A stretch of DNA of 41,825 bases from an uncultured Lachnospiraceae bacterium. GTDB lineage: Bacteria; Bacillota; Clostridia; Lachnospirales; Lachnospiraceae. Positions 4,665-41,825 of this stretch are shown here, piece after piece. The position numbers were made by a program, and so were the translations under genes. Every line of letters starts with the position of its first letter. Within the stretch, counting starts at the first letter, position 1. The stretch is from the NCBI GenBank assembly GCA_947630005.1, contig CANRGB010000012.1, positions 1 through 41,825 of the forward strand, given 5' to 3'. The notes beneath the pieces are model-generated. The model did not search any database. It was not told the origin of the DNA and saw only the letters and a list, made by a program, of their open reading frames with translations.

Positions 4665-4738
4665 TGTAGTATATATATGCGCACTACAATATTTTCACCG
4701 TAATTACCCATCTTTTTACCTTGCACAGGGAGGATCAT

Positions 4739-5917
4739 ATGTCAGATATACTCACTTTGGAGCAGACTCTTCCGGTCGGCCCCTTAAAAATCGCCGTTCT
4801 GGAAGGATGTCGCAAACTGGGCGCAACCGTGGACAGCCACATCGCCGCCATGCGGAGAGATACCGCCCGCCATCTGAAAAATCCGCCGATGGTTTCCGGT
4901 TATCTGGAGGACAGCTATCTTTTAGGCTGCAGCTGCCCGCGGTTCGGTTCAGGCGAGGGCAAAGGGCACATCGACGGCTCCGTGCGCGGGACCGATCTGT
5001 ATATTCTGGTCGATGTCTGTAATTACAGCCTGACCTACACGGTATGCGGATACAGGAACCATATGTCGCCTGACAATCACTATCAGGACCTGAAGCGCAT
5101 CATCTCGGCGGCTACCGGCAAAGCAAAGCGCATCAATGTCGTCATGCCTTTTCTCTATGAAGGCCGCCAGCATAAGAAAAACAAGCGTGAGTCGCTGGAC
5201 TGTTCCATCGCTCTGCAGGAGCTCTCCGATATGGGAGTCTCAAACATCATCACATTCGACGCGCATGACCCGCGCGTTCAGAACGCGATTCCGCTGAAAG
5301 GCTTCGATTCTTTCATGCCTACCTACCAGTTCCTGAAAGCGCTCGTGGACACCGTTCCCGATTTCCGGATCGACCCGAACCATCTGGCCGTCATCAGTCC
5401 GGACGAAGGCGCGATGGAGCGGGCCGTTTACTTCGCGAACATTCTCGGGCTGAGCATGGGCATGTTCTACAAGCGGCGCGACTATACGACGATCGTCAAC
5501 GGAAAGAATCCGATCGTCGCCCACGAATTTCTCGGAGACTCCGTCGAGGACAAGGACGTCATTATTATCGACGACATGATCTCTTCGGGCGGCAGTATGC
5601 TCGATACCGCGCGCCAGTTAAAAGAACGCAGGGCGAAACGCGTGTTTATCTGCACGACGTTCGGACTGTTTACGGACGGCTTCGAGGCATTTGACGATTA
5701 CTATGAGAAAGGATACATCTCGAAAGTCGTCACGACCAACCTGAACTACCGCGCTCCGGAGCTTCTCGCGAAACCCTACTACGCGGAGGCCGATATGTCC
5801 AGATTCCTTGCGATGATCATCGAATGTATGAACCACGACGTGTCCATGAGCAGGATCGAATCCCCCACCGAGAAGATCAACGATCTTCTTGCCTCCTATC
5901 ACGCGATCCGTTCCTGA
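4739..5917 (+). CDS. prs: Ribose-phosphate pyrophosphokinase, divergent long form
   Basis: PRPP-loop-like VIIIDDMISSGGSMLDTA; SD GGGAGG before ATG 4739 (shorter than ORF-track start 4721). Confidence 0.88.
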   Translation: MSDILTLEQTLPVGPLKIAVLEGCRKLGATVDSHIAAMRRDTARHLKNPPMVSGYLEDSYLLGCSCPRFGSGEGKGHIDGSVRGTDLYILVDVCNYSLTYTVCGYRNHMSPDNHYQDLKRIISAATGKAKRINVVMPFLYEGRQHKKNKRESLDCSIALQELSDMGVSNIITFDAHDPRVQNAIPLKGFDSFMPTYQFLKALVDTVPDFRIDPNHLAVISPDEGAMERAVYFANILGLSMGMFYKRRDYTTIVNGKNPIVAHEFLGDSVEDKDVIIIDDMISSGGSMLDTARQLKERRAKRVFICTTFGLFTDGFEAFDDYYEKGYISKVVTTNLNYRAPELLAKPYYAEADMSRFLAMIIECMNHDVSMSRIESPTEKINDLLASYHAIRS

Positions 5918-5966
5918 ACCGTTTCCCGGAAAAAAGAATTCCTTATGCGGACCTGCGCATAAAGGG

Positions 5967-6018
5967 AGCCGCGCGAAGAGCAGACCGAAAAGGTTTTGTT
6001 CTCCGCGCGGCTGTTTTT
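5967..6018 (+). terminator. Intrinsic terminator after prs
   Basis: AGCCGCGCG...CGCGCGGCT stem followed by GTTTTTG. Confidence 0.65.
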
Positions 6019-6043
6019 GTGTGCGGGCCCGCATACCGCCGTC

Positions 6044-7438
6044 TTATTTTCCGTACGCTTTCACATAGACAAACCCTGTGTCATCCCTGTGCATATGGTA
6101 ATCTTCCTCGAGCAGAGCGCGAAGAAGATCATCGCCGCGCGAATCCACCGGCACGATTTTCATACCGAGCGCCTCCTGCGCTTCCTGCAGGGTCACGTCG
6201 TCCAGAAATACATCCTCTCCCATCCGCAGCATGTTCGACGGGATCAGAAGCACGTCTCCGCGCTCCCCGCGCGGAATTTCCCCTGCCTGCCTGATCAGAT
6301 CCTGTCCGGTGATCAGTCCGGACACCGTGATCGTCTCGCCAAAAAAATCATTCCGGATCCTGATCACCCGCACCGAACATCCGGGCCATGCCTCCATAAA
6401 CCGCGCGGCAAGACTGCGGATCATCTCACCGGCGAGGCGGCCCGTGGCGATCGTCACAGTCCTCCGGAGATTCTTCTCATATTCATACTGAGGACTTTTA
6501 ACCCGCTCTTCCAGCGCCCGAACGAACTCCTCCCGCAAAAGCCGCATCATACCCACGCCGTTTTCAAGCTGAATATAACCGTCATAGCGTTCCTCCTCCG
6601 GATACGGCCGCTCTGCCAGGGCGTAAAATTCATCGCTCGCGTGAACGAAGTGCAGGCCGTACCGGTCAAAAAATTCCTTCTGCCGTTTCTCGACCGAATC
6701 TATCACTCGCGCCGCCTCTTCTTTTGTAAACAGTTCCAGCGGATACAGCTTCTCCCGGTATCTCGTGATCCCCGCAGGAACGACCGACACGCTCCGGAGA
6801 AACGGAAGAAATGCCGACAGGTCTTCGATCGTGCGCTCAAGTTCCGCTTCGTCATTGATTCCTCTGCAGAGCACGATCTGTCCGTTCATCTCAATCTGAT
6901 GATCATAAAGCCGCTTCATATAGGAAAGCGAGGAGCCCGCGAAACGATTGCGCAGAATCCGGCACCGAAGTTCCGGATTCGTCGTATGAATCGAAATGTT
7001 GATGGGCGCAAGGTGAAACCGTATGATCCGGTCAATGTCCTTCTCGCTCATATTCGTCAGCGTGACATAATTTCCCTGGAGAAACGACAGTCTGGAATCG
7101 TCATCCTTGAAGTACAGCGTTTCCCGCATGCCGGGCGGCATCTGATCGATAAAGCAGAAGATGCAGCGGTTCCGGCAGGAATGATATTCGCTCATCAGAT
7201 CGTTTTCAAAAACGATACCGAGGTCCTCGTCATACTCCTTTTCGATCTCCAGTTCCCACTGTTCGCCGTCCGGCTTCTCAATAAGCACAGTCAGACACTC
7301 TTCTTTTATCAGGAACCGGTAATCGAACACATCTTCGATCTCCTCATCATTGACCGCAAGCAGGCAGTCTCCCGCCTCCACCTCAAGTTCTTCGGCAATC
7401 GATCCGGGCAGGATCTCTTTAATCAAATGTCCGTTCAT
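6044..7438 (-). CDS. PDZ/radical-SAM-like DUF512 family protein
   Basis: 464 aa; N-terminal PDZ-like GSIAEELEVEAGDCLLAVN, CRNRCIFCFIDQMPPGMRETLYFKDDD cluster. Confidence 0.88.
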   Translation of the reverse strand: MNGHLIKEILPGSIAEELEVEAGDCLLAVNDEEIEDVFDYRFLIKEECLTVLIEKPDGEQWELEIEKEYDEDLGIVFENDLMSEYHSCRNRCIFCFIDQMPPGMRETLYFKDDDSRLSFLQGNYVTLTNMSEKDIDRIIRFHLAPINISIHTTNPELRCRILRNRFAGSSLSYMKRLYDHQIEMNGQIVLCRGINDEAELERTIEDLSAFLPFLRSVSVVPAGITRYREKLYPLELFTKEEAARVIDSVEKRQKEFFDRYGLHFVHASDEFYALAERPYPEEERYDGYIQLENGVGMMRLLREEFVRALEERVKSPQYEYEKNLRRTVTIATGRLAGEMIRSLAARFMEAWPGCSVRVIRIRNDFFGETITVSGLITGQDLIRQAGEIPRGERGDVLLIPSNMLRMGEDVFLDDVTLQEAQEALGMKIVPVDSRGDDLLRALLEEDYHMHRDDTGFVYVKAYGK

Positions 7439-10223: not shown

Positions 10224-10790
10224 TCACAAAAATCCGAAACCGGACAGAGGCCGGATCCTCAGCCAGACTTTTCCGATTATATCGCTGCGTGATATATTCC
10301 CCACGCTCGGCTCCCGGCTGTCGCTGCTGCTGTTCCGGTTGTCTCCGAGGACAAAATACTCGTCCCGTCCCAGCGTGACCGGCTCCAGGGCCAGGCCCGG
10401 ATTGCTGATCTTTCCGTAGCCATAGTCCTCATCCAGCTCCCTGCTGTTGATATAGATCATGCCGTCCTGAATCTGTACGGTTTCCCCGGGAAGTCCGATG
10501 ATACGTCTGATATATAAAGTATCCTCCCGGTATCGGAACGGAAAAACGACAAGATCAAACCGGCCGGGATTCGTAAACCGATACGACAGCTTGTCAATGA
10601 TCAGATCATCTCCGTCATTCAGCGTCGGATACATCGACTCACCGGCAGCCTGTATGTGTTCCCCCGCATATCCGGCCGCAAGCCAGATGCAGACAAACAC
10701 AGCCACAAAATAAAAAATTCCGCCGAACACTTCTCTGACAACAGATTTTTTCCTGACGGCAGCTTTTTTTGCAGTTCTTTTTCTTTTCAC
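10224..10790 (-). CDS. lepB: Signal peptidase I paralog 1
   Basis: GESMYPTLNDGDDLI, YIRRIIGLPGE, GDNRNSSSDSR boxes. Confidence 0.9.
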   Translation of the reverse strand: MKRKRTAKKAAVRKKSVVREVFGGIFYFVAVFVCIWLAAGYAGEHIQAAGESMYPTLNDGDDLIIDKLSYRFTNPGRFDLVVFPFRYREDTLYIRRIIGLPGETVQIQDGMIYINSRELDEDYGYGKISNPGLALEPVTLGRDEYFVLGDNRNSSSDSREPSVGNISRSDIIGKVWLRIRPLSGFGFL

Positions 10791-10817: not shown

Positions 10818-11402
10818 TTACTGATGCTTCAGAAATCCGATATCAGACAAAGGCCAGATGCGCACCCACGCGCGGCCTACAATCTTATCCCTTTTGATGT
10901 TCCCGACAAGCTCGCTGCGGCTGTCCTTGCTGTTGTTGCGGTTGTCCCCCATGACGAAGTATTCATCGTCACCCAGCTTCACAGGCTCAATCGCGCGGCC
11001 GGGATCCTCAATCGTCTCAAGGCCGTAATCTTCCTCCAGAATTTCTCCGTCTATGTAAATATTGCCTTCCAGGTCAATCTGTATTGTCTCGCCCGGCATG
11101 CCAATGATACGTTTGATGAAAAACTTGGAATCGTCATACGGGAACACGATGATATCGAATCGGTCCGGTTCCCCGAAACGATAGGACAGCTTTTCGACGA
11201 TCAGATTGTCCCCGTCATTCAGCGTCGGATTCATGGAGCGTCCGTCCACCAGAGTCCTCTGTCCGACAAAATTCAGGATAAACCAGGTCAGCCCCAGCAC
11301 AACGCCGATATAAACGATCCAGCTTAAGATTTCCTTTGCCATACTGGTCTGTTTCGCTTCCTTTTCCTCTTTCCTCTTGTCATCCTTCAAATCAGCCACC
11401 AC
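10818..11402 (-). CDS. lepB: Signal peptidase I paralog 2
   Basis: GRSMNPTLNDGDNLI, FIKRIIGMPGE, GDNRNNSKDSR. Confidence 0.95.
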   Translation of the reverse strand: MVADLKDDKRKEEKEAKQTSMAKEILSWIVYIGVVLGLTWFILNFVGQRTLVDGRSMNPTLNDGDNLIVEKLSYRFGEPDRFDIIVFPYDDSKFFIKRIIGMPGETIQIDLEGNIYIDGEILEEDYGLETIEDPGRAIEPVKLGDDEYFVMGDNRNNSKDSRSELVGNIKRDKIVGRAWVRIWPLSDIGFLKHQ

Positions 11403-12339: not shown

Positions 12340-12927
12340 TCAGCCGCGCAGCAGTCTTCTGTTTCTGGCCGGCGACAGAACCATCCATACTTTTCCCTCA
12401 ATATGTTCGATATCCACTGTGCCGACATCGGCAAAGCGGCTGTCTATGCTGTTGTTGCGGTTATCGCCAAGCACGAAATATTCTTTTCTTCCGAGCCGGA
12501 TCTCCTCCGCCGCCATTCCCGGATTCGTAATAGCCGGATAATTCCGATCCTCCATCAGCACCTGGCCGTCAATATACAGGATTCCTTCCTTGATCTGAAC
12601 CGTCTCCCCCGGCAGGCCGACCACGCGCTTGATATTGGAATGTGCCGTTTCGCTGCCGTTCGGCCGGAATGAAATGATATCCCCGCGTTCGGGACGGCCG
12701 ATCTGATAGGAAAAAGTATTGATAAGGACCGTATCTCCTCCCTGCAGGGTCATCTCCATCGACTGTCCGACGTTCGTTCTGGACTGGCCGAAAAAGATCA
12801 CGGCAATGTAGGCAAAGAGAATCGTCACCAGAATCTGAAACGCCCACACCAGAATATTCTTCAGGATTGCGGTCCGGCTTGTGCGGCCCGTATTCCGCTC
12901 GGGCATCCGGGGTCTTTGTCTTTTCAT
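12340..12927 (-). CDS. lepB: Signal peptidase I paralog 3
   Basis: GQSMEMTLQGGDTVLI, NIKRVVGLPGE, GDNRNNSIDSR. Confidence 0.92.
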   Translation of the reverse strand: MKRQRPRMPERNTGRTSRTAILKNILVWAFQILVTILFAYIAVIFFGQSRTNVGQSMEMTLQGGDTVLINTFSYQIGRPERGDIISFRPNGSETAHSNIKRVVGLPGETVQIKEGILYIDGQVLMEDRNYPAITNPGMAAEEIRLGRKEYFVLGDNRNNSIDSRFADVGTVDIEHIEGKVWMVLSPARNRRLLRG

Positions 12928-17865: not shown

Positions 17866-17930
17866 CAATTTTACAGAAAATTCATAATTTTCCGTTTTGG
17901 GCCCTGAGGCAGAATGAGAAAACCTTTCCC

Positions 17931-18076
17931 GCGCGGCCCGCATGCTGCGCCAGCAGCTGATTTTCCTATGCGGACCTGCGCGCAAAAATCGAGCAGGAGG
18001 CGGCTTTTCCTTCTGCTCGCCTGCGCGGCCCGCATGCTGCGCCAGCAGCTGATTTCCTTATGCGGGCCTGCGCATA
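17931..18076. repeat. Composite palindromic repeat locus, module order A-B-A
   Basis: Two ~52-55 nt copies of GCGCGGCCCGCATGCTGCGCCAGCAGCTGATTT.CC..ATGCGG.CCTGCGC flanking CGAGCAGGAGG...CTTCTGCTCG. Confidence 0.9.
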
Positions 18077-18129
18077 AACGAAGGGACCGCCGGAAAGCTC
18101 TCCCGATGCCTTTCCGACAGTCCCCTGAT

Positions 18130-18513
18130 CTACTTGATAAAACGGTCTATCGCCTTGTTCAGCTCCTCGATTGTTTTTCTGTCGCCGGATTCAACCGCGT
18201 CGACCAGACAGTGTTCGATATGATCCTGCAGGATCACCTTGCCGGTATTGTTGATCGCCGCCTTAACCGCCGAGAGCTGCACCAGAACCTCGCTGCAGTC
18301 GCGGCCTTCCTCCACCATCCGCTTGATGGACTGCAGATGGCCGATCACCCGCGACAGGCGGTTCAGTACCGCTTTCGTATGTTCATGCGAATGAGGATGC
18401 GTATGTGTGTGCCCCTGCTCGTTCGTGTGGGAATGCTGTATCACCGTACCGTCCGCAAGCACATGCGTGTGCGCGCTCCCGGCCGCCTCTGTCTCATAAT
18501 TCTCATTTTTCAC
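18130..18513 (-). CDS. CsoR/RcnR (DUF156) metal-sensing repressor with His-rich N-terminal extension
   Basis: HTKAVLNRLSRVIGHLQSIKRMVEEGRDCSEVLVQLSAVKAAINNTGKVILQDHIEHC; upstream HTHTHPHSHEH. Confidence 0.93.
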   Translation of the reverse strand: MKNENYETEAAGSAHTHVLADGTVIQHSHTNEQGHTHTHPHSHEHTKAVLNRLSRVIGHLQSIKRMVEEGRDCSEVLVQLSAVKAAINNTGKVILQDHIEHCLVDAVESGDRKTIEELNKAIDRFIK

Positions 18514-29580: not shown

Positions 29581-29628
29581 CTGTTAATTTGCAGGAAATT
29601 AAATAAAAGCCTGCGGATATCCGGCAAT

Positions 29629-29697
29629 CGGGCAGGAGGCGGCTTTTCCCTCCTGCCCGCCGCGCGGCCCGCATGCTGCGTGCGGGCCTGCGTATAC
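29629..29697. repeat. Composite repeat locus: module B plus shortened module A
   Basis: CGGGCAGGAGG...CCTCCTGCCCG (11 bp arms) then GGCCCGCA-TGCTGCG-TGCGGGCC. Confidence 0.88.
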
Positions 29698-29702
29698 GAA
29701 AA

Positions 29703-29723
29703 CTGGCGGCCATTGGCCGCCAC
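29703..29723 (-). terminator. Hairpin terminator downstream of yajC
   Basis: TGGCGGCC-ATT-GGCCGCCA followed on minus by GTTTTCG. Confidence 0.5.
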
Positions 29724-29752: not shown

Positions 29753-30067
29753 TTAAGCCTCTCCGGCTTTCTCCACTTCCGCGATGGCCGTCTTTTTCAT
29801 CGGAATACGGCAGTTTTTGTTGCTTCCGAACTCAACGATGCAGTCCTCATCCGTGATATCGATCACCACACCGTAAAATCCGCTGGTCGTCACGATCGTG
29901 TCACCTACCTCAACGGACGCAATGAGGGCAGCCATTCTCTTCTGCTCTTTTTTCTGCGGACGAATTGCAATAAAATACATCAGGGCGCCAAGAAATACGA
30001 TGTAGATCACCATTGTAATGAGGGGCATCCCGCCTCCCGCACCTTCTGTCATTACATTCATCATCAT
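29753..30067 (-). CDS. yajC: Preprotein translocase subunit YajC
   Basis: TM helix then FIAIRPQKKEQKRMAALIASVEVGDTIVTTSGFYGVV. Confidence 0.95.
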   Translation of the reverse strand: MMMNVMTEGAGGGMPLITMVIYIVFLGALMYFIAIRPQKKEQKRMAALIASVEVGDTIVTTSGFYGVVIDITDEDCIVEFGSNKNCRIPMKKTAIAEVEKAGEA

Positions 30068-41508: not shown

Positions 41509-41528
41509 TGTCCTCCATATACATTCCT

Positions 41529-41640
41529 CCGCATGCGGGCCTGACTGACTGATCGAGCAGGAGCTGCCTTTCCTCCTGCTCGCACGCGCGGCCCGCATGC
41601 TGCGCCAGCAGCTATTTTCCATATGCGGGCCTGTGCATAA
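41529..41640. repeat. Composite repeat locus: partial A, B, complete A
   Basis: CCGCATGCGGGCCTG; CGAGCAGGAG...CTCCTGCTCG; GGCCCGCATGCTGCGCCAGCAGCTATTTTCCATATGCGGGCC. Confidence 0.9.
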
Positions 41641-41681
41641 AAAAAACTGTCAACCGCTTCTACACAGTGACAGTTTATCAT
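41641..41681 (-). terminator. rRNA operon terminator
   Basis: Minus AAACTGTCACTGTGTAGAAGCGGTTGACAGTTTTTTTT. Confidence 0.8.
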
Positions 41682-41770
41682 TTCTACAGCCGCATATACA
41701 ATTACATACCTTCAAAACCACATACAGATCAACACCCGTTCTTTTTTTCCTTACAAACCCGCCCGTATCG

Positions 41771-41825
41771 GACAAGCCTGCGACCTATTAGTAGCAGTCA
41801 GCTCCATGCATTGCTGCACTTCCAC
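41771..41825 (-). rRNA. rrl: 23S rRNA 3' end (partial)
   Basis: Minus strand GTGGAAGTGCAGCAATGCATGGAGCTGACTGCTACTAATAGGTCG, conserved 23S 3' terminus. Confidence 0.93.

Follow-up and report, generated by a model that had tools for sequence, protein, structure and literature searches.

The insertion sites of group IIC introns lie immediately downstream of Rho-independent terminators (PMC8919778; PMC4424553), and a published IIC retrohoming substrate is composed of a stem-loop followed by TTTTTTAT and a run of T residues (PMC7161350). Bacterial group II introns without an ORF rely on the protein of a related intron in trans (PMC4424553). The group III introns of euglenid chloroplasts are approximately 90–120 nt long, at times contain only DI and DVI motifs, and are believed to rely on trans-acting machinery (PMC4424553). 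The repeat described here was found in an uncultured Lachnospiraceae bacterium and is read, with moderate confidence, as a non-autonomous, SINE-like mobile element of approximately 86 nt that is related to group IIC introns and uses the same kind of target.

The source genome is a 3.2 Mb metagenome-assembled genome (MAG) that is 82.8% complete, and the window is the whole 41,825-nt stretch of its DNA that was analysed. The repeat unit is a tandem of two modules, A and B, of approximately 86 nt, and the minus strand is its natural strand in the window. Read on that strand, a terminator hairpin and a T-tract are followed by GCGCAGGCCCGCATAAGGAAATCAGCTGCTGGCGCAGCATGCGGGCCGCGC, which is module A, and then by AGGCGAGCAGGAGG-loop-CCTCCTGCTCGAT, which is module B. 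The copies in the window and their surroundings are as follows.

17988..18073, minus strand: full A-B unit, with A at 18023-18073 and B at 17988-18022 (R1 model, 109.8 bits; fold); its 5' end abuts the terminator T-tract
17928..17981, minus strand: further tandem copy, cut short on the right and left with module A only (R1 match at 17914-17981; left-intact blastn match)
18083..18124, minus strand: intrinsic-terminator-like hairpin, then TTCGTTTAT, the insertion target (fold of 18020-18130, minus strand)
18130-18513, minus strand: CsoR-like gene (Pfam PF02583), whose 3' end bears the hairpin at 18083..18124
29627..29693, minus strand: A-B unit in which A has lost its inner hairpin (R1 model, 56.9 bits; B at 29627-29660)
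29704..29722, minus strand: terminator hairpin and GTTTTCGTAT, target of the unit at 29627 (terminator scan)
29753-30067, minus strand: yajC (Pfam YajC), upstream of the terminator at 29704..29722
41552..41636, minus strand: full A-B unit past the terminator of the 23S rRNA gene end (R1 model, 93.3 bits)
41645..41675, minus strand: hairpin, T8 and AT, separating the unit from the 23S rRNA end (from the sequence)
41768-41825, minus strand: 3' end of the LSU rRNA gene, inside which the contig stops
41524..41543, minus strand: second A copy, right-truncated (CAGGCCCGCATGCGGAGGAA; from the sequence)
5936..5958, minus strand: right-truncated copy on the minus side of a bidirectional terminator (left-intact blastn match; sequence)
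5968..6011, no strand assigned: bidirectional terminator hairpin (fold of 5940-6040, z -9.0)
4721-5917, plus strand, and 6044-7438, minus strand: convergent genes flanking the terminator at 5968..6011
6020..6034, plus strand: degenerate left-end copy (TGTGCGGGCCCGCAT) on the plus side of the same terminator (sequence; pattern match)

The hairpins at 18083..18124 and 41645..41675 were not listed by the consensus terminator scan. A first-pass annotation of this DNA had named four repeat loci, and all of them were found at or near the places it gave. Its A-B-A arrangement at 17931-18076 is a real locus that consists of one full A-B unit and a right-truncated second unit, and its half element at 5943-6033 does hold the repeat, in the form of two truncated copies on opposite strands that flank the bidirectional terminator. 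The copy that it placed at 29629 is present, with the inner hairpin of A missing, and the truncated A at 41524-41543 lies beyond the loci that it named. The window also contains a minus-strand cluster of three genes of the signal peptidase I-like type (PF10502), at 10224-10790, 10818-11402 and 12340-12927.

The repeat family is real and widespread. Searching the genome and its relatives with the R1 structure model yielded many further copies, with at least 150 A-B units matched in the MAG itself, where arrays of several tandem units are present. The core of A, at two mismatches or fewer, has 112 matches in the genome compared with 2 for the reversed pattern, and 4 matches in the window compared with 0.19 expected. 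The R1 model also matched 33 of the 47 genomes of the genus, at 3 to at least 95 copies per matching genome, and at least 22 of 250 genomes drawn from the family, with 17 candidates per genome scored. The repeat is present in approximately 20 other Lachnospiraceae genera, and the length of the unit across the family ranges from 75 to 124 nt. The closest named relatives are uncultured gut Lachnospiraceae, and a search of the vicinity of leuB in 80 named relatives gave no units, and the repeat therefore has no established host that is both cultured and named. The phage, plasmid and viral collections searched held no true match to the repeat, the Rfam search returned no family at the element, and the unit of approximately 86 nt has no coding capacity.

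Module A is predicted to fold into an outer stem of 4 + 9 bp that bulges out a single A and is stacked with an inner 5 bp hairpin, in agreement with the fold proposed by the first-pass annotation. Each copy of A, as well as the longer units, folds better than nearly all dinucleotide-preserving shuffles. The structure of the repeat is under selection, with the letters of the stems changing while the pairing is kept, and the compensated arm differences that had been noticed earlier hold up on both scales at which they were counted. Compensation is modest among 34 distinct units of the source genome (12 double-change cells versus 4.6 when shuffled) and strong across the genus. The genus alignment was built with the structure model and is hence biased towards that structure; 95.7% of its cells are paired, double-change cells number 137 versus 40±4 when shuffled, and covariation is 0.386 versus 0.145, with slid controls that collapse. 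The printed unit sequences, inspected by eye, show the same kept pairing. Constant while the stems vary are the 5' GYRCAG, the internal-loop RGGAA and the CGCGC that closes A, together with GCGAGYAGG...CTACTCGAT around B.

The junctions follow the pattern …TTTTAT/GCGCAG…CTACTCGAT/Y (slashes mark the ends of the element), in one orientation and right after a terminator hairpin and T-tract. The element starts exactly at the end of the T-tract (usually ...TTAT/) and without exception on the same strand as the transcript that is terminated; its 3' end is ...CTACTCGAT/, followed by T or C. Of 47 elements, 45 have a pyrimidine following CGAT. Among 81 first units, which are the best-scoring loci and not a random sample, a strong stem ends 2–14 nt upstream in 78%, against a background of 17% for randomly chosen sites and 22% for TTTAT sites, and the junction reads AT in 86% and TAT in 72%. 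Several of the sites with a weak stem (uncounted) are, by our reading on inspection, terminators with longer loops. The nearest upstream ORF, by simple ORF calling, shares the strand of the unit in 65 of 90 cases. The position of the units relative to gene ends is directly after the terminators of genes, which in the window are yajC, the gene for the CsoR-like protein and the 23S rRNA gene, at its end; units were also found behind rRNA and tRNA genes, and the same target and orientation pattern is seen in the approximately 20 other genera. An extra small hairpin module like TCACAGGAAATTTCGTCCTGTGA lies past the CGAT end at loci of two genomes, G006 (L119, L121, L126) and G046 (L144, L145).

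The first-pass annotation had likened the repeat to the BIMEs of enterobacteria and had suggested a RAYT-like transposase as its mobiliser. High copy number, palindromic modules and intergenic position would suit a REP/BIME family of this kind, but the units form direct tandem arrays of a single orientation, locked to terminators, with no alternating inverted REPs, and the consensus of 34 units has no GTAG (or CGTC) tag at the foot of the hairpin. A search of the 82.8% complete source genome for Y1_Tnp (PF01797) found none, and within the genus the domain does not track the repeat, which occurs in 18 of 25 Y1-positive and 15 of 22 Y1-negative genomes. The family is not a BIME, and mobilisation of a REP/BIME family by RAYT is extremely improbable. 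Remnants of one ordinary IS end are excluded, since the unit lacks terminal inverted repeats and many genera conserve A-B in its entirety.

The repeat has also been mobile recently. In G050, a nearly complete genome of another genus, 100% identical 89-nt copies are present at four distinct unrelated loci, with the paired contig ends of one locus counted once, and a fifth locus holds a copy with one base changed; each copy lies behind a different terminator, and one of them is past a tRNA gene. The site at the yajC terminator is empty in G006 and G046, which are 84–89% identical across the region, and the terminator there ends in CGTAT. The left junction of this empty site is exact (CGTAT/), the right junction is blurred by 14 extra bases and a small deletion, and no target-site duplication is seen at this one site (CGTAT/AGGC versus CGTAT-element-...AGGC). 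Some insertions are common to G006 and G046 and others differ. Together, the identical copies at unrelated loci of G050 and the empty site in G006 and G046 indicate that the repeat moves or recently moved, and the earlier description of a dispersed, intergenic, structure-conserved family that behaves like mobile DNA is supported.

A structure strongly conserved over many genera, with a strict position that extends to sites behind rRNA and tRNA genes, could also belong to an RNA or DNA element that is useful to the host past terminators, as a back-up terminator or insulator, and is spread by gene conversion. This explanation is quite unlikely, however, as presence at orthologous loci of near relatives is patchy, the identical copies of G050 lie past unrelated genes with unrelated flanks, copy number varies from 0 to at least 95 inside one genus, and truncated and decayed copies are common. 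Truncated copies identified by blastn are left-intact in 12 cases versus right-intact in 4, the latter being mostly internal deletions. Truncation is therefore mostly of the right (3') end, which is the opposite polarity to ordinary target-primed reverse transcription, where 5' truncation results; selection for retention of the terminator could explain this bias. Two recent-looking copies in G050 (L324, L328) have an intact left junction and stop after approximately 30–37 nt of the element. At the L134/L148 pair (G006/G046) and at other flanks, degraded ends of units remain beside terminators where the full unit is gone. A longer, autonomous version was sought in G050, and full or truncated copies were all that was found there.

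The terminator target of the repeat directed the search to group IIC introns. In the genus, G016 carries eight identical 1911-nt IIC introns after a hairpin and T-rich tail, in the same orientation as the units. These introns end in ...CACCGCCTCCTACTCGAT/T, and other IIC introns of the genus end in ...CCCCCTATCCGAT. Module B is a predicted hairpin that stops 2 nt short of the unit's 3' end, and at the sequence level its terminal sequence is that of IIC domain VI, alternative tails included. The tails of IIC introns are CTACTCGAT, CTACCCGAT (from IMG/VR copies) and CTATCCGAT, and among 64 element tails CTACTCGAT occurs 26 times, CTGCTCGAT 19 times, CTGCCCGAT 7 times and CTATCCGAT 3 times. In the unit variant with an A at the branch position, the terminal ACCGCCTCCTACTCGATT is identical to the G016 intron end over 18 nt, which was reached in 0 of 200 shuffles. 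The +1 base after the IIC introns listed is a pyrimidine, as it is in the elements. At L269 a unit lies directly behind the 3' end of a IIC intron in the same way that units follow units, the sole such case among the IS200 and group II RT loci that were scanned for units. The link to group IIC introns is drawn from target, orientation, 3' tail and +1 base combined. The tail also occurs outside class C: non-IIC group II introns of the genus (L271, L272, L275, L276, L282) end in CTACTCGA, mostly CTACTCGAC.

Other features of the unit differ from those of group IIC introns. The 5' end is GYRCAG, unlike the GUGYG of group IIC introns, and a comparison of module A with two IIC introns gave no significant similarity. 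The branch-site A, a free bulge in domain VI, is in the element opposite a C, in a pair with U or exchanged for G, and G occupies the branch position in the commonest tails of the source genome. Domain V and the ribozyme core are missing from the 86-nt unit, and without domain V the element cannot catalyse anything alone; the Rfam group II search of the window gave no match. A 13-nt match of A to a IIC intron falls, by position, inside the RT-coding part and was unconvincing. An EBS1-like pairing of the A loop with the target was tested and is unsupported. Ordinary group IIC introns that had decayed by loss of their middle would leave remnants with the same site, orientation and 3' tail, but they would not account for a module A unlike the IIC 5' end, for the conservation of A-B as one unit with compensatory changes in approximately 20 genera, or for the identical full units that spread as such in G050. 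Such an origin is very unlikely.

No group II RT was found in the source genome, which is 82.8% complete; multi-copy introns are frequently absent from MAGs. Across the genus, a clear group II RT is no predictor of the repeat, which is present in 10 of 14 genomes with such an RT versus 23 of 33 without, and G016 has 11 RT matches and zero R1 matches. Loss of the helper intron from lineages after the spread of the repeat could account for this pattern. The lack of an RT in the source genome and a truncation polarity unlike that of target-primed reverse transcription would suit a DNA-level element, on which a recombinase or a HUH-type single-strand transposase acts through the hairpin and T-tract, with the likeness to domain VI arising by convergence. 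IS200/IS605-type cleavage would also yield TTAT/ and CGAT/ junctions without target duplication. An unrelated DNA mechanism of this sort is the main rival to the SINE-like, IIC-related reading, although it is itself unlikely. Y1_Tnp is missing here and untracked in the genus, the genes adjoining the units include no recurrent transposase ORF, and the 18-nt tail identity, the common tail variants and the +1 pyrimidine are left unexplained.

As its tail matches that of a class of mobile group II introns, the repeat may be a stripped-down hitch-hiker that is mobilised in trans by group IIC intron machinery. Under the preferred, SINE-like and IIC-related reading, the element RNA would be produced by read-through or from a neighbouring promoter, and in this RNA B would pose as a mimic of domain VI and A as a 5' structural domain. 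A full-length IIC intron RNP (maturase/RT, with or without the ribozyme core) would then insert the element into hairpin-plus-T-tract DNA, through either reverse splicing or target-primed reverse transcription. Repeated insertion would build the tandem arrays, as B plus CGAT would imitate a terminator site and take the next copy. The element and the IIC intron would be the bacterial counterpart of a SINE on a LINE. A more tentative extension is that RNAs of approximately 86 nt, made up of a 5' domain and domain VI and lacking the core, are spliced or reverse-spliced in trans by a IIC ribozyme/RT across many Lachnospiraceae genera. On this view, equally speculative, such coreless RNAs would be bacterial analogues of SINEs or of the euglenid group III introns.

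To our knowledge, SINE-like elements that live on a retroelement are not known in bacteria, and we know of group II introns reduced to their ends only from euglenid plastids. No described equivalent was found in the open-access full-text literature searched or in Rfam, which is no proof of novelty. If the proposed reading is true, trans-catalysis by group II introns becomes testable in gut bacteria, and many intergenic repeats of Lachnospiraceae have a clear origin. Transcript-end mapping in Lachnospiraceae would need to separate the units from the terminators that precede them.

Compared with known systems, the element shares with REP, BIME and REPIN sequences a short palindromic form, high copy number, extragenic position and kept structure, whereas its units follow terminators as direct tandems of a single orientation, without the GTAG tag or a RAYT. 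Like MITEs it is short, non-autonomous and dispersed; it differs from them in having no terminal inverted repeats (GCGCAG... compared with the reverse-complemented end ATCGAG...) and no target-site duplication at the one empty site. The element length of 75–124 nt and the DVI-like module B would roughly fit the group III introns, in which case A would have to correspond to DI; those introns interrupt chloroplast genes and are spliced, whereas the bacterial elements lie after terminators. Group IIC introns differ in that the element is approximately 86 nt long with no domain V, ribozyme core or RT gene, in that its 5' end and module A are unmatched, and in that its branch A is unbulged. Both are found after intrinsic terminators in sense orientation with a T-rich 5' flank and a +1 pyrimidine, and both have a 3' end of ...CCTACTCGAT reached through a terminal hairpin and ending in AY. 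The ORF-less group II introns retain the whole ribozyme, which the element does not, and the element resembles them in its proposed dependence on the protein of a related intron in trans.
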